Virus record (IMG/VR): IMGVR_UViG_3300024518_000282
Span: 1 to 25,866 of that record
Strand: one strand, 5' to 3'
DNA: 25,866 bases
From: a virus
In this document: positions 222 through 25,269 of the stretch, piece by piece
How the letters are laid out: each line of letters opens with the position of its first letter
Position numbering within the stretch: the first letter of the stretch is position 1
Made by a program: the position numbers and the translations under genes
Notes under the pieces: generated by a model
The model's database searches: none
What the model was told of the DNA's origin: nothing
Seen by the model: the letters and a program-made list of their open reading frames with translations, nothing else

Positions 222-1904
222 TCAAAACCTCTCTGTTTCTGATTTTCTATCCACACGCTTCCAACCGTTGGCAGCGATTGCATCAATGAGTTTACTCGCT
301 TCGACCATACTGGTGTCTGGCGAGTACCCAAATCTTCTTAACAATTTTGCTTGTTTGTATGTTGCCTTGCCATTCTTCGATCTTTCAATAAGCCTACCAA
401 TCAAAGCCGAACCTTGCGATGATGTCATGAGGGTGGCATCTGCTGTGTCCACACCAAACCTTTTCAATCCGGCAACGAGCCTGTCGGAGCATGGCTTGTT
501 AGATTCACCCCAAGCCGACTTACGGTCAACAGGCTTCATGCCAATTGCATCGAATGGATTAGATGTTTTAGATGACCAATCGACCTTGGCTCTGAGCCTT
601 GCTCTTCTGGCATGCTCTTCTGCTTCACGCCGCTTAGACTCTTTGATCTTCTCCTCAAGATCAGCACGAGCTTGTTTTAGTGCCTCGTCTACATCCTTTG
701 GTTCTTTGTACTCTTTAAGAATTTCTCTTGCTATCGTGATCTCTGCTTCACTGTATATCCCGCCAAGCAAGTTGGCTGTGTGCATAAGTTTATGCCGACC
801 AGCGTTGCCAACAAAGTCTACTATTTCTAGTGTTTGTTTCGCTGATGCTGCGATAGCACACCTTCGCTCTTCAGACGAGGACAGACCGTCAACGGTGTTG
901 GCAAGTGTGCGTGTCCCTCTCCCAACCATCTGTGCAAACAGTGACCGAGACTTTGTTGGTCGTGCTAAGACTATTACCTCAACAGTTGGTTCATCAAAAC
1001 CCTCTGTAAAGCAGCCAACATTTACAAGTATTCTAGTTTTGCCTTCTGCAAACCTTCGCAATGTTTCCCTGCGAGAGTCTTTATGTGTCTTGCCACACAC
1101 CCATTCGGATGAGCCATGCTTGTGCCGATTGAATATCTCGCACAATCTTTCAGCGTGTGCAACACTTGCTGCGAACACCAGTGTCTTACGATCACCAATA
1201 ATTTCAAGCGTTGGTGTTGCAATGCCATGAAGATTCTTTTCGTACTCCATTACTGCTGCGAGTTGCTTGCCATTAAGATCCCCGGCTGTTGTTTTAATGC
1301 CAGAATAATCTAGGCTATTAACCACAACCGACCTCTGCACTATTGGGACAAGCCAGCCATCTGCTATTGCATCGTGGATCTTATATTCATAGGCTACTGC
1401 ATCGAATATCATCCCCAACGCTTTTTCGTCTGCACGATCAGGTGTTGCAGTAACCCCCAATATTTTTATCTCAGGATTATTCTGCTTGTAATAATCTATG
1501 ATTCTTTTGTAGCTTTTAGCGGGTGCGTGATGAGCCTCATCAATTATCACCATAGAGAATTGCTTAGGGTCAAACTTGAGTAGACGGTTACTAGCGTTCT
1601 GTGTTTGAACACTGGACACAATAACCTTTGACCTTCTAAAGAAACCTTCGTCTGCACGATAGTCAGCCATCTCTATTGATGGCTTACTACCAGTAATAAC
1701 CTCTACCTTTGCAGCCGCTTGCCAGATTAATTCCTCTCGATGCGCAAGGATAAGCACCCTACCAGAGATTTCTCTATCAACAAGGTGTACAAACACAATG
1801 GTTTTACCTGTACCTGTTGGGAGAATAAGAAGTTGAGATCGGTGTTTACTCCACCCAGACTCAATAGAATCAACAGCGTCCTTTTGATACGGTCTAAGGT
1901 TCAT
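222..1904 (-). CDS. DEAD/DEAH-type superfamily 2 helicase
   Basis: ATP-dependent nucleic-acid helicase of superfamily 2 (type III restriction subunit/RecQ-like ResIII architecture), 560 residues, normal for phage members. Motifs in order: a Q-like RPYQ near residues 4-7, Walker A PTGTGKT at 29-35, Walker B DEAHH at 122-126, motif III TATP at 152-155, then in the second RecA-like domain GFDEP followed by the motif VI block QMVGRGTR near 335-345. The C-terminal third is charged and coiled-coil-like (many E, K and R), followed by a small domain containing KATYKQAKLLRRFGY, which resembles C-terminal tails of other phage helicases. Start 1904 gives an ATGA overlap with the methyltransferase stop and has a GGAAGAA tract upstream; an in-frame start at 1925 would overlap further. 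It probably unwinds DNA during phage replication or recombination. Confidence 0.93.
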   Translation of the reverse strand: MNLRPYQKDAVDSIESGWSKHRSQLLILPTGTGKTIVFVHLVDREISGRVLILAHREELIWQAAAKVEVITGSKPSIEMADYRADEGFFRRSKVIVSSVQTQNASNRLLKFDPKQFSMVIIDEAHHAPAKSYKRIIDYYKQNNPEIKILGVTATPDRADEKALGMIFDAVAYEYKIHDAIADGWLVPIVQRSVVVNSLDYSGIKTTAGDLNGKQLAAVMEYEKNLHGIATPTLEIIGDRKTLVFAASVAHAERLCEIFNRHKHGSSEWVCGKTHKDSRRETLRRFAEGKTRILVNVGCFTEGFDEPTVEVIVLARPTKSRSLFAQMVGRGTRTLANTVDGLSSSEERRCAIAASAKQTLEIVDFVGNAGRHKLMHTANLLGGIYSEAEITIAREILKEYKEPKDVDEALKQARADLEEKIKESKRREAEEHARRARLRAKVDWSSKTSNPFDAIGMKPVDRKSAWGESNKPCSDRLVAGLKRFGVDTADATLMTSSQGSALIGRLIERSKNGKATYKQAKLLRRFGYSPDTSMVEASKLIDAIAANGWKRVDRKSETERF

Positions 1905-3160
1905 TTTAATTCTTCCATCAAGCACACAAAGGCTTTCGCCGCAACAATAGGTACTACTCCGTTTCCGAGTAGTCGCAGAGAATCCAATCGACAGGAACGC
2001 ACCACGTTGCCATCGGCAATCCCATAATCTGAGCCACCCATAGCGGTGATAGTTTCTTCACCCCCGATGGTTCGTGGGGCTTCCCAGCCTTGTTGTTGTT
2101 CATTTGGTTTGCTTGGGAATAAATCTCCACCGACTTCGGATCGACTTGTTCCCGAAGATTGCAGGGTCGTGTTCGCCCCTTCCTTATTCCGTCCGCTTGT
2201 TTTCGCAACGCCTCGTCGCTTCTGGTCAGATGATCCATTGTGTTTGGTGTTGCCCAATTTACAACATCCTCCCGAAGATTCCTGCACCCGCCCCCCTTTG
2301 CAGCATCCGTCAATTCGTTTGGCTTTCTTATCTGATCTCCCCTTGTCGAATCCGTCACTTGTGGTGTTGCCCACGCTTTCACTTTCCCCTGTTCTTTGAA
2401 TACATCTGCACCCAACATCGCATCTGCCTCTGCCTTGTCTAGCCCCGCAAGTACACCCTTTCGTAGTAGGCGTACATTCCCCTCGTGTGGTCGTAGAGTT
2501 ACGTCCGGCGTTGGCCAATTCGTCTGAACAACATCTGTCAACGTGTCCCCCACCACGCTCTTCCAATGTGGCTTGGCTGCTGTCGATCTTCGACTGCCCT
2601 TCGCATCGCTGGCTGTCTGTGTCGGACACCGCAAGGATGAACACTCGCTTCCTTTGATGAGGCGCGCCGCATTCCTCCGCACTGAATATGCTTGCCGTTG
2701 CTCTGTAACCCAAAGTCTCCAATCTTCCCAAGACATGCTTGAGAACACTTGTACCTTCTTCTCCTCCATACTTAGAGGAAATAATCCCTTCGACATTTTC
2801 AAGGAAGATGATTCTTGGTTTACACTCCATGATAATTCGTTCGATGTCTGGGAACAAATGTCTTGGATCATCTGTACTTTTTTGTTGCCCTGCATGGCTG
2901 AATGGCTGGCATGGGAATCCGCCAGTGAGGATGTCCACGAGTCCACAAAACGGTCGTGCATCGAAGGTTTTAAGGTTCGTCCACAAAGGTGCTTCATCCA
3001 ATTGTTTGCTTTCCATCTTCTCAACCAAGTTCCCCGCAGCGAAGGCTTCGATCTCCACATAAGCGACCGTTCGCATTGTTGGGAGAACGCTTCTGAGTCC
3101 AAGGTCGATGCCTCCGTATCCCGAACATAAACTGAGGTGATTGATTTTGGTAGTATCCAC
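1901..3160 (-). CDS. DNA (cytosine-5)-methyltransferase
   Basis: It transfers a methyl group from S-adenosylmethionine to C5 of cytosine in DNA. All key motifs are visible in this frame: motif I LCSGYGGIDLG near residues 11-21, motif IV GGFPCQPFS with catalytic Cys about 84, motif VI ENV at 121-123, motif VIII QRKR at 169-172, and the motif IX-X block RLLGNGVVP near the C-terminus. I chose the GTG start at 3160 because AAGGA lies 7 bases upstream; the longer form from a GTG at 3199 would overlap the previous gene. The roughly 200-residue variable region between motifs VIII and IX is low-complexity, rich in G, C, S, T and R, and has recurring L/V-A/G-N-T/A units. The same DNA is open in another frame, described separately. 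A phage methyltransferase of this type usually protects phage DNA from host restriction. Confidence 0.93.
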   Translation of the reverse strand: MDTTKINHLSLCSGYGGIDLGLRSVLPTMRTVAYVEIEAFAAGNLVEKMESKQLDEAPLWTNLKTFDARPFCGLVDILTGGFPCQPFSHAGQQKSTDDPRHLFPDIERIIMECKPRIIFLENVEGIISSKYGGEEGTSVLKHVLGRLETLGYRATASIFSAEECGAPHQRKRVFILAVSDTDSQRCEGQSKIDSSQATLEERGGGHVDRCCSDELANAGRNSTTTRGECTPTTKGCTCGARQGRGRCDVGCRCIQRTGESESVGNTTSDGFDKGRSDKKAKRIDGCCKGGRVQESSGGCCKLGNTKHNGSSDQKRRGVAKTSGRNKEGANTTLQSSGTSRSEVGGDLFPSKPNEQQQGWEAPRTIGGEETITAMGGSDYGIADGNVVRSCRLDSLRLLGNGVVPIVAAKAFVCLMEELK

Positions 3161-3162
3161 AT
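1954..3162 (-). other. Long overlapping ORF in the +1 frame inside the methyltransferase gene
   Basis: This frame is open for 402 codons from an ATG at 3162 that overlaps the methyltransferase GTG as ATGTG; the same AAGGA serves both, 5 bases from this ATG. The first half shows no recognisable motif. Over about 1984-2628 it reads like a real methyltransferase target-recognition region, with repeated units CPTQTASD, WPTPDVT, WATPQVTD and WATPNTMDHL, then NLRED, RKGRTRPCNLREQVDP and SPLWVAQIMGLP. From family knowledge, W-P/A-T-P repeats and an LxPxWVxxLMG ending are typical of phage cytosine methyltransferases. Other same-strand shadow frames in this window rarely exceed 90 codons. It could be an overprinted gene, a region reached by frameshifting, or the ancestral frame of a gene with compensating indels. 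Confidence 0.5.
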
Positions 3163-3176
3163 TTCTATCCTTTCGT

Positions 3177-4037
3177 TTATAAGCCACACATGCCTTCACA
3201 CTCGTTGTCCCAAAGGGCTAAATCTGGTTGACCTTTTTCGGCACTTGTCCGAAGGTCAGCGTCTCTTAGTGGAACACAACTTTTGTGCAAATACATATTC
3301 TTTCTAATTTTACCACGCTTGTCCTCTCGTATCTTGTCATCAAAATCGCAAGCGTTTTCCCATTCTTCCTCGTTTTCCCTAATTTTTCGCCACTCGTTTG
3401 TAGAATGGAATGGGCATCCTATGCAAGCAGATCGGGGGACAGTGATTTCAGGATAGTTTTCTTCCAACCATTTTATGCAATCACGCCTTCGCCAATTCTT
3501 ACCATCCATATAATCACAACCCCAAGAAATTAGCGGGAAAACATTTCTGCACCAAACATTGCGTGATGGTTTTGCCCTTGTTGCTTCATCATATGAAATG
3601 CCCATCCATTGCTCAATCACAACTTCTTTTGGAGCGCGTTGCCTATATTTCAAACCTAGAATGTTCTCGCGTAAGTATTTAGTCACTGGGGCAATCTTGA
3701 AATCCATAGTGCATTGCCGCATTGAAATCCCCTCTTGTTGTCCCTCAATTGTTGCCGTGTAAAATGGCAACATTGAAAACCTTTTGCCTTCAGGATTTGT
3801 GATGTTGTTCAAGACGGAATCCTTCAGGTTATCTCCATCCCTTTTGACAACGGCAACAGGAATGCCGTGCCTCTCACCTTCTTTTTTACACCAATCTAAA
3901 TGTGAATAAACAGATGCTGGCTCCCACCCAGTGTCGGCGAATACTGCGGCATCGAGTTTCGGTAAAAGTCCACGGCAGCTCATCAAAAATAAACAAGTGG
4001 ATTGGATTCCTGCTCCAAACGAAAGCACCTGTTTCAT
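3177..4037 (-). CDS. PAPS-reductase-like PP-loop protein (IbrA-like)
   Basis: Member of the phosphoadenosine phosphosulfate reductase/adenine nucleotide alpha-hydrolase superfamily, 286 residues. The ATP-binding PP-loop is SFGAGIQST at residues 6-14. Further on are RQCTMDFKIAPV and a CIGCPFHS motif, cysteine pairs typical of phage members of the family, which differ from the sulfate-assimilation CysH signature. Start 4037 makes an ATGA overlap with the ParB-like gene and has AAGGA 6 bases upstream; an upstream in-frame start at 4115 would extend into that gene. Known relatives include phage-borne IbrA, which is encoded beside the ParB-like IbrB, and DndC of DNA phosphorothioation. Its neighbours here (ParB-like before, cytosine methyltransferase after) point to DNA or nucleotide chemistry rather than sulfate assimilation. 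The exact substrate is unknown. Confidence 0.82.
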   Translation of the reverse strand: MKQVLSFGAGIQSTCLFLMSCRGLLPKLDAAVFADTGWEPASVYSHLDWCKKEGERHGIPVAVVKRDGDNLKDSVLNNITNPEGKRFSMLPFYTATIEGQQEGISMRQCTMDFKIAPVTKYLRENILGLKYRQRAPKEVVIEQWMGISYDEATRAKPSRNVWCRNVFPLISWGCDYMDGKNWRRRDCIKWLEENYPEITVPRSACIGCPFHSTNEWRKIRENEEEWENACDFDDKIREDKRGKIRKNMYLHKSCVPLRDADLRTSAEKGQPDLALWDNECEGMCGL

Positions 4038-4912
4038 ATTGTTCCTTTCATTTCTTCGGGCAAACATTTCCATAACTGTTGGGAGAGCCATCCACGATGA
4101 GAACATTCTGAACAACCATCGCCGTCACAGTAGACACACACCGCATGGGGCATCGCTGTTTTCCTTAACGCAGTAATAATGTTATGACAATCTGCAACAA
4201 AAGCATTAGTTGCTACATCGGCAGCAACGGCATCCATTCTTGATTCTGATTTTTCGCCCCATGTTTTCAGAGCATGGGCATGGGTTATAAGATCTGAAAT
4301 TTCATCTGTTATGTACCCCCATTTTCTACAAAGATGTTCAGGGATTACATTGCCAACCGCATCCTTCTGCACAGGAGGAGCGGGAGGGTTCTTAACAAAC
4401 ACATCCTTGGGACTTCCTATGTTGCTTGTTTCTACTTCTCGACCACCCTTGGTCACTCTTAACGTAGGTTGACTTGCAGAGTCTGCAAGTGAGTTTCTAT
4501 TTGTTCGGACTAATTCGTGCGACACACCAACGTGGCTTGCGATCATGGAGTCGCTCCACTCTGGATGAATTTTTAATCCCATCACGACAGCCCTACGTTT
4601 GTCTGCATTTGTCCTTCTAATGCCATGAGTTTGGTTCGCTGCAATAGCAAACCACTGAGCGTCCTCACGAGTCCCCTCACGAACATCTGCGTTAATCTTG
4701 GACATCAACGCCTTCCGAGCAGCGTGCCATCTATGGAAGCCGTCAGCAAGCCACATGTCAACACCGTCATTGAACACAACAATGGGCGGCAACTCTTTTG
4801 CCGACTCGTATGCTGCGGCATAATCTGAAACCGCGTTGACATCTATGGATACTCTTGACTGTGTATCACCGTTGATTTTAATATCTTCTACAAATATATC
4901 TTTAATAGTCAT
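4034..4912 (-). CDS. ParB-like nuclease-domain protein with C-terminal zinc finger (IbrB-like)
   Basis: The protein has 292 residues. The N-terminal ParB/sulfiredoxin-type domain covers about residues 1-100, with the diagnostic LADGFHR motif around 55-61. A helix-turn-helix-like stretch with ASHVGVSHELVR lies near 120-140. The middle is a variable, proline-containing linker (KNPPAPPV). Near the C-terminus CVYCDGDGCSECSHRGW has CxxC pairs arranged like a DnaJ-type zinc finger. Start 4912 was chosen because GGAG lies 6 bases upstream; the in-frame ATG at 4942 has no such site. It overlaps the PAPS-reductase-like gene by ATGA, so the two are probably co-translated. Phage ParB-like proteins may bind or nick DNA or use CTP/ATP; which applies here cannot be told from sequence. 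Confidence 0.85.
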   Translation of the reverse strand: MTIKDIFVEDIKINGDTQSRVSIDVNAVSDYAAAYESAKELPPIVVFNDGVDMWLADGFHRWHAARKALMSKINADVREGTREDAQWFAIAANQTHGIRRTNADKRRAVVMGLKIHPEWSDSMIASHVGVSHELVRTNRNSLADSASQPTLRVTKGGREVETSNIGSPKDVFVKNPPAPPVQKDAVGNVIPEHLCRKWGYITDEISDLITHAHALKTWGEKSESRMDAVAADVATNAFVADCHNIITALRKTAMPHAVCVYCDGDGCSECSHRGWLSQQLWKCLPEEMKGTI

Positions 4913-24019: not shown

Positions 24020-24494
24020 AGTAGGATTCCTTCAATGCTTTGTTCGCATCTTTCTTTTTTCGTTCAGTTACAGGAACACGCACCCTAGATGATGGCGTTA
24101 AGCCAAATTCTGTCTCTAGCTTGATTAAGTCTTTGTTTAACGCCTCCACAATTCTGGAGTAAGGAGATCTAATTGGATCGCCTTTTGAGTTAATGAATAC
24201 ATCACCCTCTTTTGCAAGCACCTCTAGTGCATCAACATACCTAACATAAGTCATACATAGCCGAGCCAGTGCTTCTCCATCAACTGATGAGATAACACCA
24301 ATCTCTAGCAACTCTTTAACTAGCCTTCTCCACTGATATTTGGCTCTCCGTCCACTGACCCATGTCGGCATCTTCGGTTCACCCGGATCTACCTCAACCT
24401 CATCAGCCCTGCCCGATCTAGTTTCATTAACCCATGTTGAACCAGAGAGTTTCAGCATTTGCTTTGGCTTTGGTTTTGGACCACGTTTACCCAT
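24009..24494 (-). CDS. Terminase small subunit (P27 family)
   Basis: The protein has 161 residues. It opens with GKRGPKPKPKQMLKLSG, the classic P27-family N-terminus, followed by PGEPKMPTWVSGRRAKYQWRRLV and VDGEALARLCMTYVRYVDA, and a VNSKGDPIRSPYSRIVEALN-like block. The small subunit recognises phage DNA and regulates the large subunit. Start 24494 was chosen because GGAG lies 9 bases upstream and the start is embedded in the HNH stop (ATGGGTAA); an ATG at 24536 has no ribosome binding site. Its stop overlaps the large terminase start. Confidence 0.92.
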   Translation of the reverse strand: MGKRGPKPKPKQMLKLSGSTWVNETRSGRADEVEVDPGEPKMPTWVSGRRAKYQWRRLVKELLEIGVISSVDGEALARLCMTYVRYVDALEVLAKEGDVFINSKGDPIRSPYSRIVEALNKDLIKLETEFGLTPSSRVRVPVTERKKKDANKALKESYFAN

Positions 24495-25269
24495 AGATAA
24501 TTTCTCCGATTTCAATCTGTTCTTTATTCTTGCCATAACGCTTGATGTAGGCAGCCTTGTTTGCGTACCAAGCGTTGATTACTGTTTCCAGCTTTCTATT
24601 GTTTTCTTTTTCTGCCTCTTGAAGTGCAGCATCTTGGCCATTGTCAATAATAATTAACTTCCCGCCAGTTTCTTCTGCAAGGTCATTCGCTCCTGCATAG
24701 TCAGTCAGAATTATAAATGCCTTCCTTTTCTCACTGATTCTCTTAGAGTGTTTCACAACAACCTCTCTAATAGACATGCCAAGCGTAATGTCCTTTGGAT
24801 CAACAGGTATCACAGCAGCCATAACCTTATCCCAATCAAAGACAATATCATTACGGCGTATCTGAGAATAGACATACGCTCTTTTTCCTGCATAGGGTGG
24901 CCCATTCACAATACGAATGTTATCGTGATTTCTTTCTTCGTTTCCTGCATCTCGAATCGTTTTCTTTTGATGACACTCTCGGCAGATACCCTGAAGGTTC
25001 TCTCTGTCGTTTCCACCGTCATCACATTTCGGGATTATGTGATCTACTTCCTCAGATGGATTATTCTTACAAACCATGCAAAACGGCTCTTCAGCAAGAA
25101 CCATCTTTCGCAACCGCCTCCACGCAACACCATATCCACGCTTATGCGCGGATAGGTGTCTACGTGGCTCTTCTCCAACAACCTTTTTCTTCGCACCATG
25201 AGATTCACATTTGCGGCTTCCATCAACCGCGAGGTGGTTACAGCCAGCATGTGTACAAAAGGTTCTCAT
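24487..25269 (-). CDS. HNH endonuclease fused to a P-loop domain
   Basis: The protein has 260 residues. The N-terminus has a small zinc knuckle (C5, C10, C21, H24). The HNH nuclease follows: zinc pairs C64/C67 and C96/C99, and VDHIIPKCDDGGNDRENLQGICRECH containing His77, Asn91 and His100. Residues 118-260 form a second domain beginning with IVNGPPYAGKRAYV, a Walker A-like GPPYAGKR, in which the last position is Arg rather than Ser/Thr, then a DWDKVMAAV strand. It resembles phage nucleotide-kinase-like AAA domains. HNH proteins next to terminase genes are often needed for cohesive-end cleavage by the packaging complex. The ATGA overlap with the preceding gene suggests coupled translation. Confidence 0.88.
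   Translation of the reverse strand: MRTFCTHAGCNHLAVDGSRKCESHGAKKKVVGEEPRRHLSAHKRGYGVAWRRLRKMVLAEEPFCMVCKNNPSEEVDHIIPKCDDGGNDRENLQGICRECHQKKTIRDAGNEERNHDNIRIVNGPPYAGKRAYVYSQIRRNDIVFDWDKVMAAVIPVDPKDITLGMSIREVVVKHSKRISEKRKAFIILTDYAGANDLAEETGGKLIIIDNGQDAALQEAEKENNRKLETVINAWYANKAAYIKRYGKNKEQIEIGEIIYG

Follow-up and report, generated by a model that had tools for sequence, protein, structure and literature searches.

C5-cytosine DNA methyltransferases in which a second chain carries motif IX are already known. The gene for the large chain of M.EcoHK31I also contains, in an alternative frame, the coding sequence of the small chain. In this two-polypeptide enzyme (YGGCCR; Lee, Kam and Shaw 1995), only motif IX resides on the small chain, and the recognition domain has been assigned to the large chain (PMC3404938). 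M.AquI (CYCGRG) is a split C5 methyltransferase, the small chain of which holds part of the variable region along with motifs IX and X (PMC3404938). We compared these enzymes with a locus in a 25.9-kb virus record (hereafter, the window, meaning the whole stretch of DNA that was analyzed). Genes for the terminase large subunit, portal, major head and tape measure were found in the window, and the virus is therefore a tailed phage.

On the minus strand of the window, a methyltransferase frame (alpha, frame 0) and a second frame in +1 phase (beta) occupy the same DNA (Table 1). A previous inspection of the letters alone (the sequence-only reading) had described both frames as open for approximately 400 codons and as starting from one AAGGA through a shared ATGTG, and the coordinates confirm both descriptions. 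The alpha stop codon overlaps, as ATGA (1901–1904, minus strand), a start codon of the ResIII/DEAD helicase gene that follows (222–1925 frame), an overlap that suggests translational coupling. Two other genes of the window were noted. The gene directly upstream of the methyltransferase (3177–4115, minus strand) displayed a weak similarity to PAPS reductase (PF01507, below the cut-off), and PAPS reductase-family genes also lie near the nested methyltransferases of phages C72C1 (L100) and Alfacinha3 (L090). At 24490–25269 (minus strand), a single ORF combines an HNH endonuclease-like part with a terminase small subunit-like part (PHROG matches).

Table 1. Features of the methyltransferase locus in the window
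Feature	Position	Strand	Description
Alpha, C5-cytosine methyltransferase catalytic frame, 419 aa	1901..3160	-	GTG start; motifs I-VIII and X, without motif IX
Beta, +1 frame ORF, 402 aa	1954..3162	-	ATG start; nested in alpha over nearly its full length
Overlapping start codons ATGTG	3158..3162	-	Beta ATG 3162-3160, alpha GTG 3160-3158
AAGGA, Shine-Dalgarno-like	3168..3172	-	5 nt ahead of beta ATG, 7 nt ahead of alpha GTG
Alpha catalytic domain, motifs I-VIII	2606..3142	-	PF00145 match; PCQ motif about 2914-2906, ENV, QRKRV
Alpha linker, aa 189-398	1967..2596	-	Low-complexity L/V-A/G-N-T; predicted disordered
Alpha motif X region RLDSLRLLGNGVVPIVAAKAF	1904..1990	-	Consensus RVDRLRLLGNGVVP; AlphaFold helix 404-418, pLDDT above 90
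Beta N-terminal region, aa 1-175	2638..3162	-	Overprints alpha catalytic domain
Beta target-recognition-like region	2068..2637	-	W-x-T-P units, NWATPNTMD block, RKGR..P.NLREQV block (consensus)
Beta motif IX-like segment KLSPLWVAQIMGLPMATW	2002..2058	-	Family consensus KLNP.WVEQLMGLP.GWT
Repeat TGGCCAACGCC	2507..2517	-	Beta W-P-T-P, alpha L-A-N-A
Repeat TGGGCAACACC	2363..2373	-	Beta W-A-T-P, alpha V-G-N-T
Repeat TGGGCAACACC	2246..2256	-	Beta N-W-A-T-P, alpha L-G-N-T

Alpha meets the criterion for a C5-cytosine DNA methyltransferase (PF00145; motifs I–VIII with PCQ, ENV and QRxR). It matched Pfam PF00145 (E = 4.3e-39) only over residues 7–185 and NCBIfam dcm TIGR00675 with E = 1e-32, and P83 C84 Q85, E121 N122 V123, R170 and R172 were invariant in the alpha alignment. 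In the consensus of 62 relatives, motifs I–VIII are followed by a poorly conserved low-complexity stretch and then by motif X, and motif IX was absent from alpha. The AlphaFold model was ordered over residues 1–185, with pLDDT mostly above 90 in the catalytic domain, and over residues 400–418, with disorder in between (pLDDT of about 30–45 over residues 189–348 and 364–398); approximately 210 predicted disordered residues thus occupy the position where a recognition domain and motif IX would be expected. The criterion for the monomeric form, a recognition domain and motif IX between motifs VIII and X in one chain, is not met by alpha. The earlier description of the catalytic frame as low-complexity L/V-A/G-N-T units across the recognition region is confirmed.

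Beta matched phrog_1008, a family of PHROGs labelled DNA methyltransferase (E = 2.5e-10, residues 74–383). No match was obtained in Pfam, NCBIfam or PDB sequence searches with beta, and the beta alignment retrieved nothing beyond chance matches from PDB sequences. The AlphaFold model of beta alone was poor (mean pLDDT 57, pTM 0.25), and this model, too poor for fold matching, found no PDB match. The motif IX-equivalent segment of gp69 of Moonbeam, a single-frame relative, aligned with residues 272–291 of M.HhaI, RKLHPRECARVMGYPDSYKV, in a phmmer alignment below the threshold. From this alignment and the similarity to the family consensus, the KLNP.WVEQLMGLP.GWT segment of beta is putatively assigned as motif IX. 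The sequence-only reading had placed SPLWVAQIMGLP at the end of a target-recognition region; the segment is best read as the conserved C5 motif IX and not only as such an end. At the level of sequence, then, parts resembling a recognition region and motif IX are shown to be lacking in alpha and present in beta, and beta is predicted to be the recognition (specificity) subunit carrying motif IX.

The window resembles M.EcoHK31I in that motifs I–VIII and X lie on the large chain and motif IX lies on a second chain, although the assignment to beta, in the other frame, is a sequence-level one with a weak match to the M.HhaI register. It differs in that the recognition domain of M.EcoHK31I is on the large chain, whereas in the window the recognition-like region is in beta and its alpha counterpart is predicted to be disordered; furthermore, beta is 402 residues long and starts with alpha, in contrast to a short internal ORF. 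Given the different location of the recognition domain, we did not file the window as an EcoHK31I enzyme, a decision made without sequence comparison with EcoHK31I. M.AquI likewise consists of two chains split after motif VIII, but motifs IX and X are both on its second chain, whereas motif X of the window is on alpha (frame 0). M.HhaI shares the catalytic motifs of alpha (profile match, E = 9e-23) but, unlike the window, has the recognition domain and motif IX in one frame with them.

Beta-like proteins have already been clustered as phrog_1008, a family matched by each of the 43 aligned betas (best E = 4.8e-30), but the family label is silent on the +1 nesting inside the catalytic frame. Gene 50 of Paenibacillus phage Diva is also a nested ORF, annotated as 'g49 internal gene' inside a methyltransferase gene; however, its product is given as 'hypothetical protein' with no role, and this beta is short (about 234 aa) with an internal start. 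What is new relative to the known systems is that the recognition-like region is in beta, that beta spans almost all of alpha, that the two starts overlap and that phages and prophages commonly have this arrangement. We found no paper describing a nested methyltransferase class in phages in the open-licence literature, to which the search was confined.

A search of viral contigs with the C-terminal half of beta yielded 79 loci, and nearly all of those that span the gene have the two frames in an identical phase relation. When six-frame translations of named phage records were searched with profiles of the parts, the nesting, with alpha motifs I–VIII and usually X in frame 0 and the recognition region and motif IX in +1, was found in phages of Paenibacillus (Diva), E. 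coli (ZCEC5), Xanthomonas (phiXaf18), Erwinia (two), Acinetobacter (ABMM1), Acidovorax (Alfacinha3), Microbacterium (R1), Synechococcus (S-H1, Ssp-JY39) and Cylindrospermopsis (Cr-LKS3), as well as in C72C1 and C75C1. Among bacterial genomes, phrog_1008 was matched at 1e-6 in 24 genomes out of 398 drawn from a single phylum, to which one relative, a Micavibrio assembly, belongs, and the loci fetched from these genomes were nearly all nested in the same way (L132 being an exception). This profile search performed better than a scan of genome contigs with the beta alignment, which relied on a single short pattern and recovered two relatives only. A gene similar to that of ZCEC5 was present in 67 of 5,426 E. 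coli genomes, labelled DNA cytosine methyltransferase among the matches listed, and the copy in E. coli O103:H2 12009 is nested. One Micavibrio assembly (G001) was observed to contain three separate nested loci (L104, L106 and L107). In E. coli XYEH3314 (L140, 678–1847), the methyltransferase is annotated as two incomplete pieces, and its catalytic and +1 frames are both long and open. A sequencing error or a frameshifted pseudogene was rejected as an account of the locus, the arrangement being conserved in about 100 loci.

From one set of parts, four architectures were distinguished: one-frame, split, short nested beta and full-length nested beta. In the one-frame enzymes of Mycobacterium phage Moonbeam and of Gudmit, the N-terminal part of alpha, the recognition part of beta, motif IX and motif X follow one another in one chain, and on the sequence evidence these single chains show what the alpha and beta chains would sum to. 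In the split form, represented by gp76/gp75 of Mycobacterium phage Datway and by L088, as well as by L029, L049 and L051 according to tblastn, motif X is also in the +1 frame, as in M.AquI; the boundary between the chains therefore moves while the sum of the parts remains constant. The Datway halves (L086, 1490–2585) carry motifs I–VIII and then, in +1, the recognition region, IX and X, and both are annotated as DNA methylase. Short nested betas occur in Diva, C72C1 and S-H1, and ordinary numbers of +1 stops were observed in the first part of alpha: over the first 78 alpha positions, 5 against 4.5 expected in L092 and 4 against 4.4 in L100, and, in the first part of alpha of the third such locus, 2 against 1.2. 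The full-length nested beta, open from the alpha start, is found in the window and its closest relatives; relative to the short betas of other phages, its first 70 or so residues are an extension. In three further loci (L028, L055 and L084), alpha ends early (about 190–225 aa) and the +1 frame continues, with similarity to motif X still present in frame 0 past the alpha stop in L055 and L084; these may be degraded, misassembled or further split forms.

An open +1 frame might arise merely from codon usage or from the constraint on the alpha protein. We evaluated this possibility by synonymous codon shuffling, in which the alpha protein and its codon usage are preserved. For the whole alpha gene of the window alone, 3 stops were observed in the +1 frame against 8.7 expected, and all 3 are in the last codons of alpha since the +1 frame is open until 1954. 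In 63 non-redundant loci, the catalytic-domain part contained 1 stop against 193 expected, and the rest, up to the +1 stop, contained 0 against 185; in total, 378 stops were expected and 1 was seen. The +2 control frame of the same loci was normal (526 against 544 in the catalytic domain and 685 against 710 in the rest). The loci share ancestry, so the counts are not independent, and many of them were picked because they resemble the C-terminal part of beta; the catalytic-domain part, however, played no role in selecting most of them. A further 40 nested loci gave a similar depletion, with 1 stop against 39.3 expected over alpha profile positions 78–181 and 0 against 42.8 after motif VIII. After motif VIII, the single-frame relatives contained 9 stops against 9.2 expected. 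Over positions 78–181, the single-frame Moonbeam and Gudmit (L096, L101) also lacked +1 stops (0 against 4.7), a result that would suit an effect of composition and because of which these positions alone are not diagnostic; it is possibly a trace of a nested ancestor.

Fourfold-degenerate sites gave a second line of evidence. At 50–55% protein identity, the identity at these sites in the catalytic domain was 0.505 against 0.314 expected by shuffling, whereas that in neighboring genes of the same loci was 0.359 against 0.306, and this gap was present in all identity bins. The synonymous constraint that the sequence-only reading had proposed to compute is therefore strong in the catalytic domain. 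Pairwise identity in the +1 frame also exceeded the synonymous null, and by more than that in the +2 frame; because an excess was present in +2 as well, reflecting shared ancestry, this test was set aside in favor of the stop and fourfold-site tests. At the level of sequence evolution, an explanation by chance or composition is already refuted, and both frames are shown to be maintained by selection. The earlier reading had also stated that it would fail if the +1 translation had no homologues or if relatives carried stops throughout it; homologous loci exist, their +1 frame has almost no stops (1 where 193 were expected over the catalytic domain), and the reading survived this test.

Selection on both frames could in principle reflect a single fused product, for which ribosomes would start in the catalytic frame, shift to +1 after motif VIII and shift back for motif X. 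The W-x-T-P region indeed begins in +1 directly after motif VIII, and some single-frame enzymes have their parts in the same order. Such a product, however, would not need the +1 frame to stay open along the whole catalytic domain, and it would regain motif X only through two shifts in opposite directions. Moreover, a start codon in the beta frame was retained in 60 of 60 relatives (ATG in 56, GTG or TTG in the other 4), as was one in the alpha frame, with ATGTGG in 44 of the 60. Both starts persist even where ATGTG is altered (L085 and L047), as in L085, which reads ATG ACA TGG. In 36 loci, the 45 nt surrounding the end of motif VIII contained no stretch of six A or six T; the criterion for programmed frameshifting, a slippery signal without an independent start in the second frame, was thus not met, although only simple slippery runs were searched. 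Frameshifting in and out, one of the possibilities raised from the sequence alone, is accordingly disfavored and appears improbable. Real overprinting, another of those possibilities, is best supported, by the depletion of stops, the synonymous constraint, the separate starts and the +1 phase, which hardly varies and is the same in about 100 loci.

The sequence-only reading had derived the repeats of both frames from the same DNA, and three copies of TGG[C/G]CAAC[A/G]CC bear this out, being read as W-P/A-T-P in +1 and as L/V-A/G-N-A/T in the catalytic frame. In the close relatives L002 and L003, the flanks are nearly identical to those of the window and the recognition region is divergent, with the differences breaking at the W-x-T-P repeats. 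Given that one DNA sequence underlies both sets of repeats and that insertions between repeats distinguish close relatives, small indels at the repeats could be imagined to switch the phase between two specificity regions, as had also been proposed. Against this, the insertions keep both frames open, the nested class always has the C-terminal part of beta in +1 and motif X in frame 0, no nested-class locus with a changed phase was encountered, and, the single-frame enzymes aside, no locus was seen with its recognition region arranged the other way round. Switching by indels therefore seems highly improbable. The pattern fits an exchange of sequence between W-x-T-P repeats that would amount to an exchange of specificity, where the specificity itself is inferred.

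Finally, beta could be a real overprinted protein with a separate task, such as a regulator or a counter-defence protein, alongside an alpha that works alone. The absence of Pfam, NCBIfam and PDB sequence matches to beta would be compatible with such a protein, as would its 175-residue N-terminal region of unknown role and the helices predicted by AlphaFold with moderate confidence at residues 20–50 and 140–160. Alpha, however, has neither motif IX nor an ordered recognition domain, and beta carries both kinds of sequence; the single-chain relatives hold the same parts in one chain, and in the five loci with the split form even motif X is in +1. We therefore regard a separate protein as unlikely. 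A narrower suggestion concerns the N-terminal region only, the consensus of which is MWI.PK..LTS..V.DT ... E.SLMWRSKPS ... TWLRRWK. These 175 residues might form a de novo domain with a distinct function in assembly, regulation or counter-defence, in which case many phage lineages would encode two full-length proteins of approximately 400 residues in one gene; this remains a tentative idea and is doubtful at present.

We thus favor, with a probability of roughly 0.8, the interpretation that the locus encodes a two-polypeptide C5-cytosine DNA methyltransferase by true overprinting, in which the translation of beta, the assembly, the specificity, the activity and the role are inferred. Under this interpretation, alpha would be the catalytic chain, providing SAM binding, PCQ and ENV up to motif VIII, and its motif X helix would pack back onto the catalytic core after the long disordered linker. 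This linker would be an unavoidable frame-0 shadow of the beta recognition region and would serve as a tether for the helix, whereas beta would supply the missing small domain, namely the W-x-T-P target recognition region and motif IX. Ribosomes would start both frames at the shared initiation region (ATGTG behind one AAGGA), so that both subunits would be made together in similar amounts. Alpha and beta might then assemble into an active enzyme, as in the two-chain M.EcoHK31I and M.AquI (PMC3404938). Swapping of sequence between the W-x-T-P repeats would alter the recognition part, and the enzyme would methylate the phage DNA, probably protecting it from host restriction. For other phage methyltransferases, such a protective role against restriction, or a different use of methylation, has been established.

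C5 methyltransferases of the nested class in phages and prophages are annotated as one protein, often in the wrong frame or with half of the enzyme missing. If both chains are needed, many predicted methyltransferases would test inactive when cloned as the single annotated chain or when recoded, and the search for recognition sequences would so far have looked in the wrong frame. The locus also provides a long overlap on one strand (about 400 codons) in which selection on each frame is independently supported. It is a good test case for two proteins evolving in one sequence, and for the exchange of specificity regions with both frames kept open.
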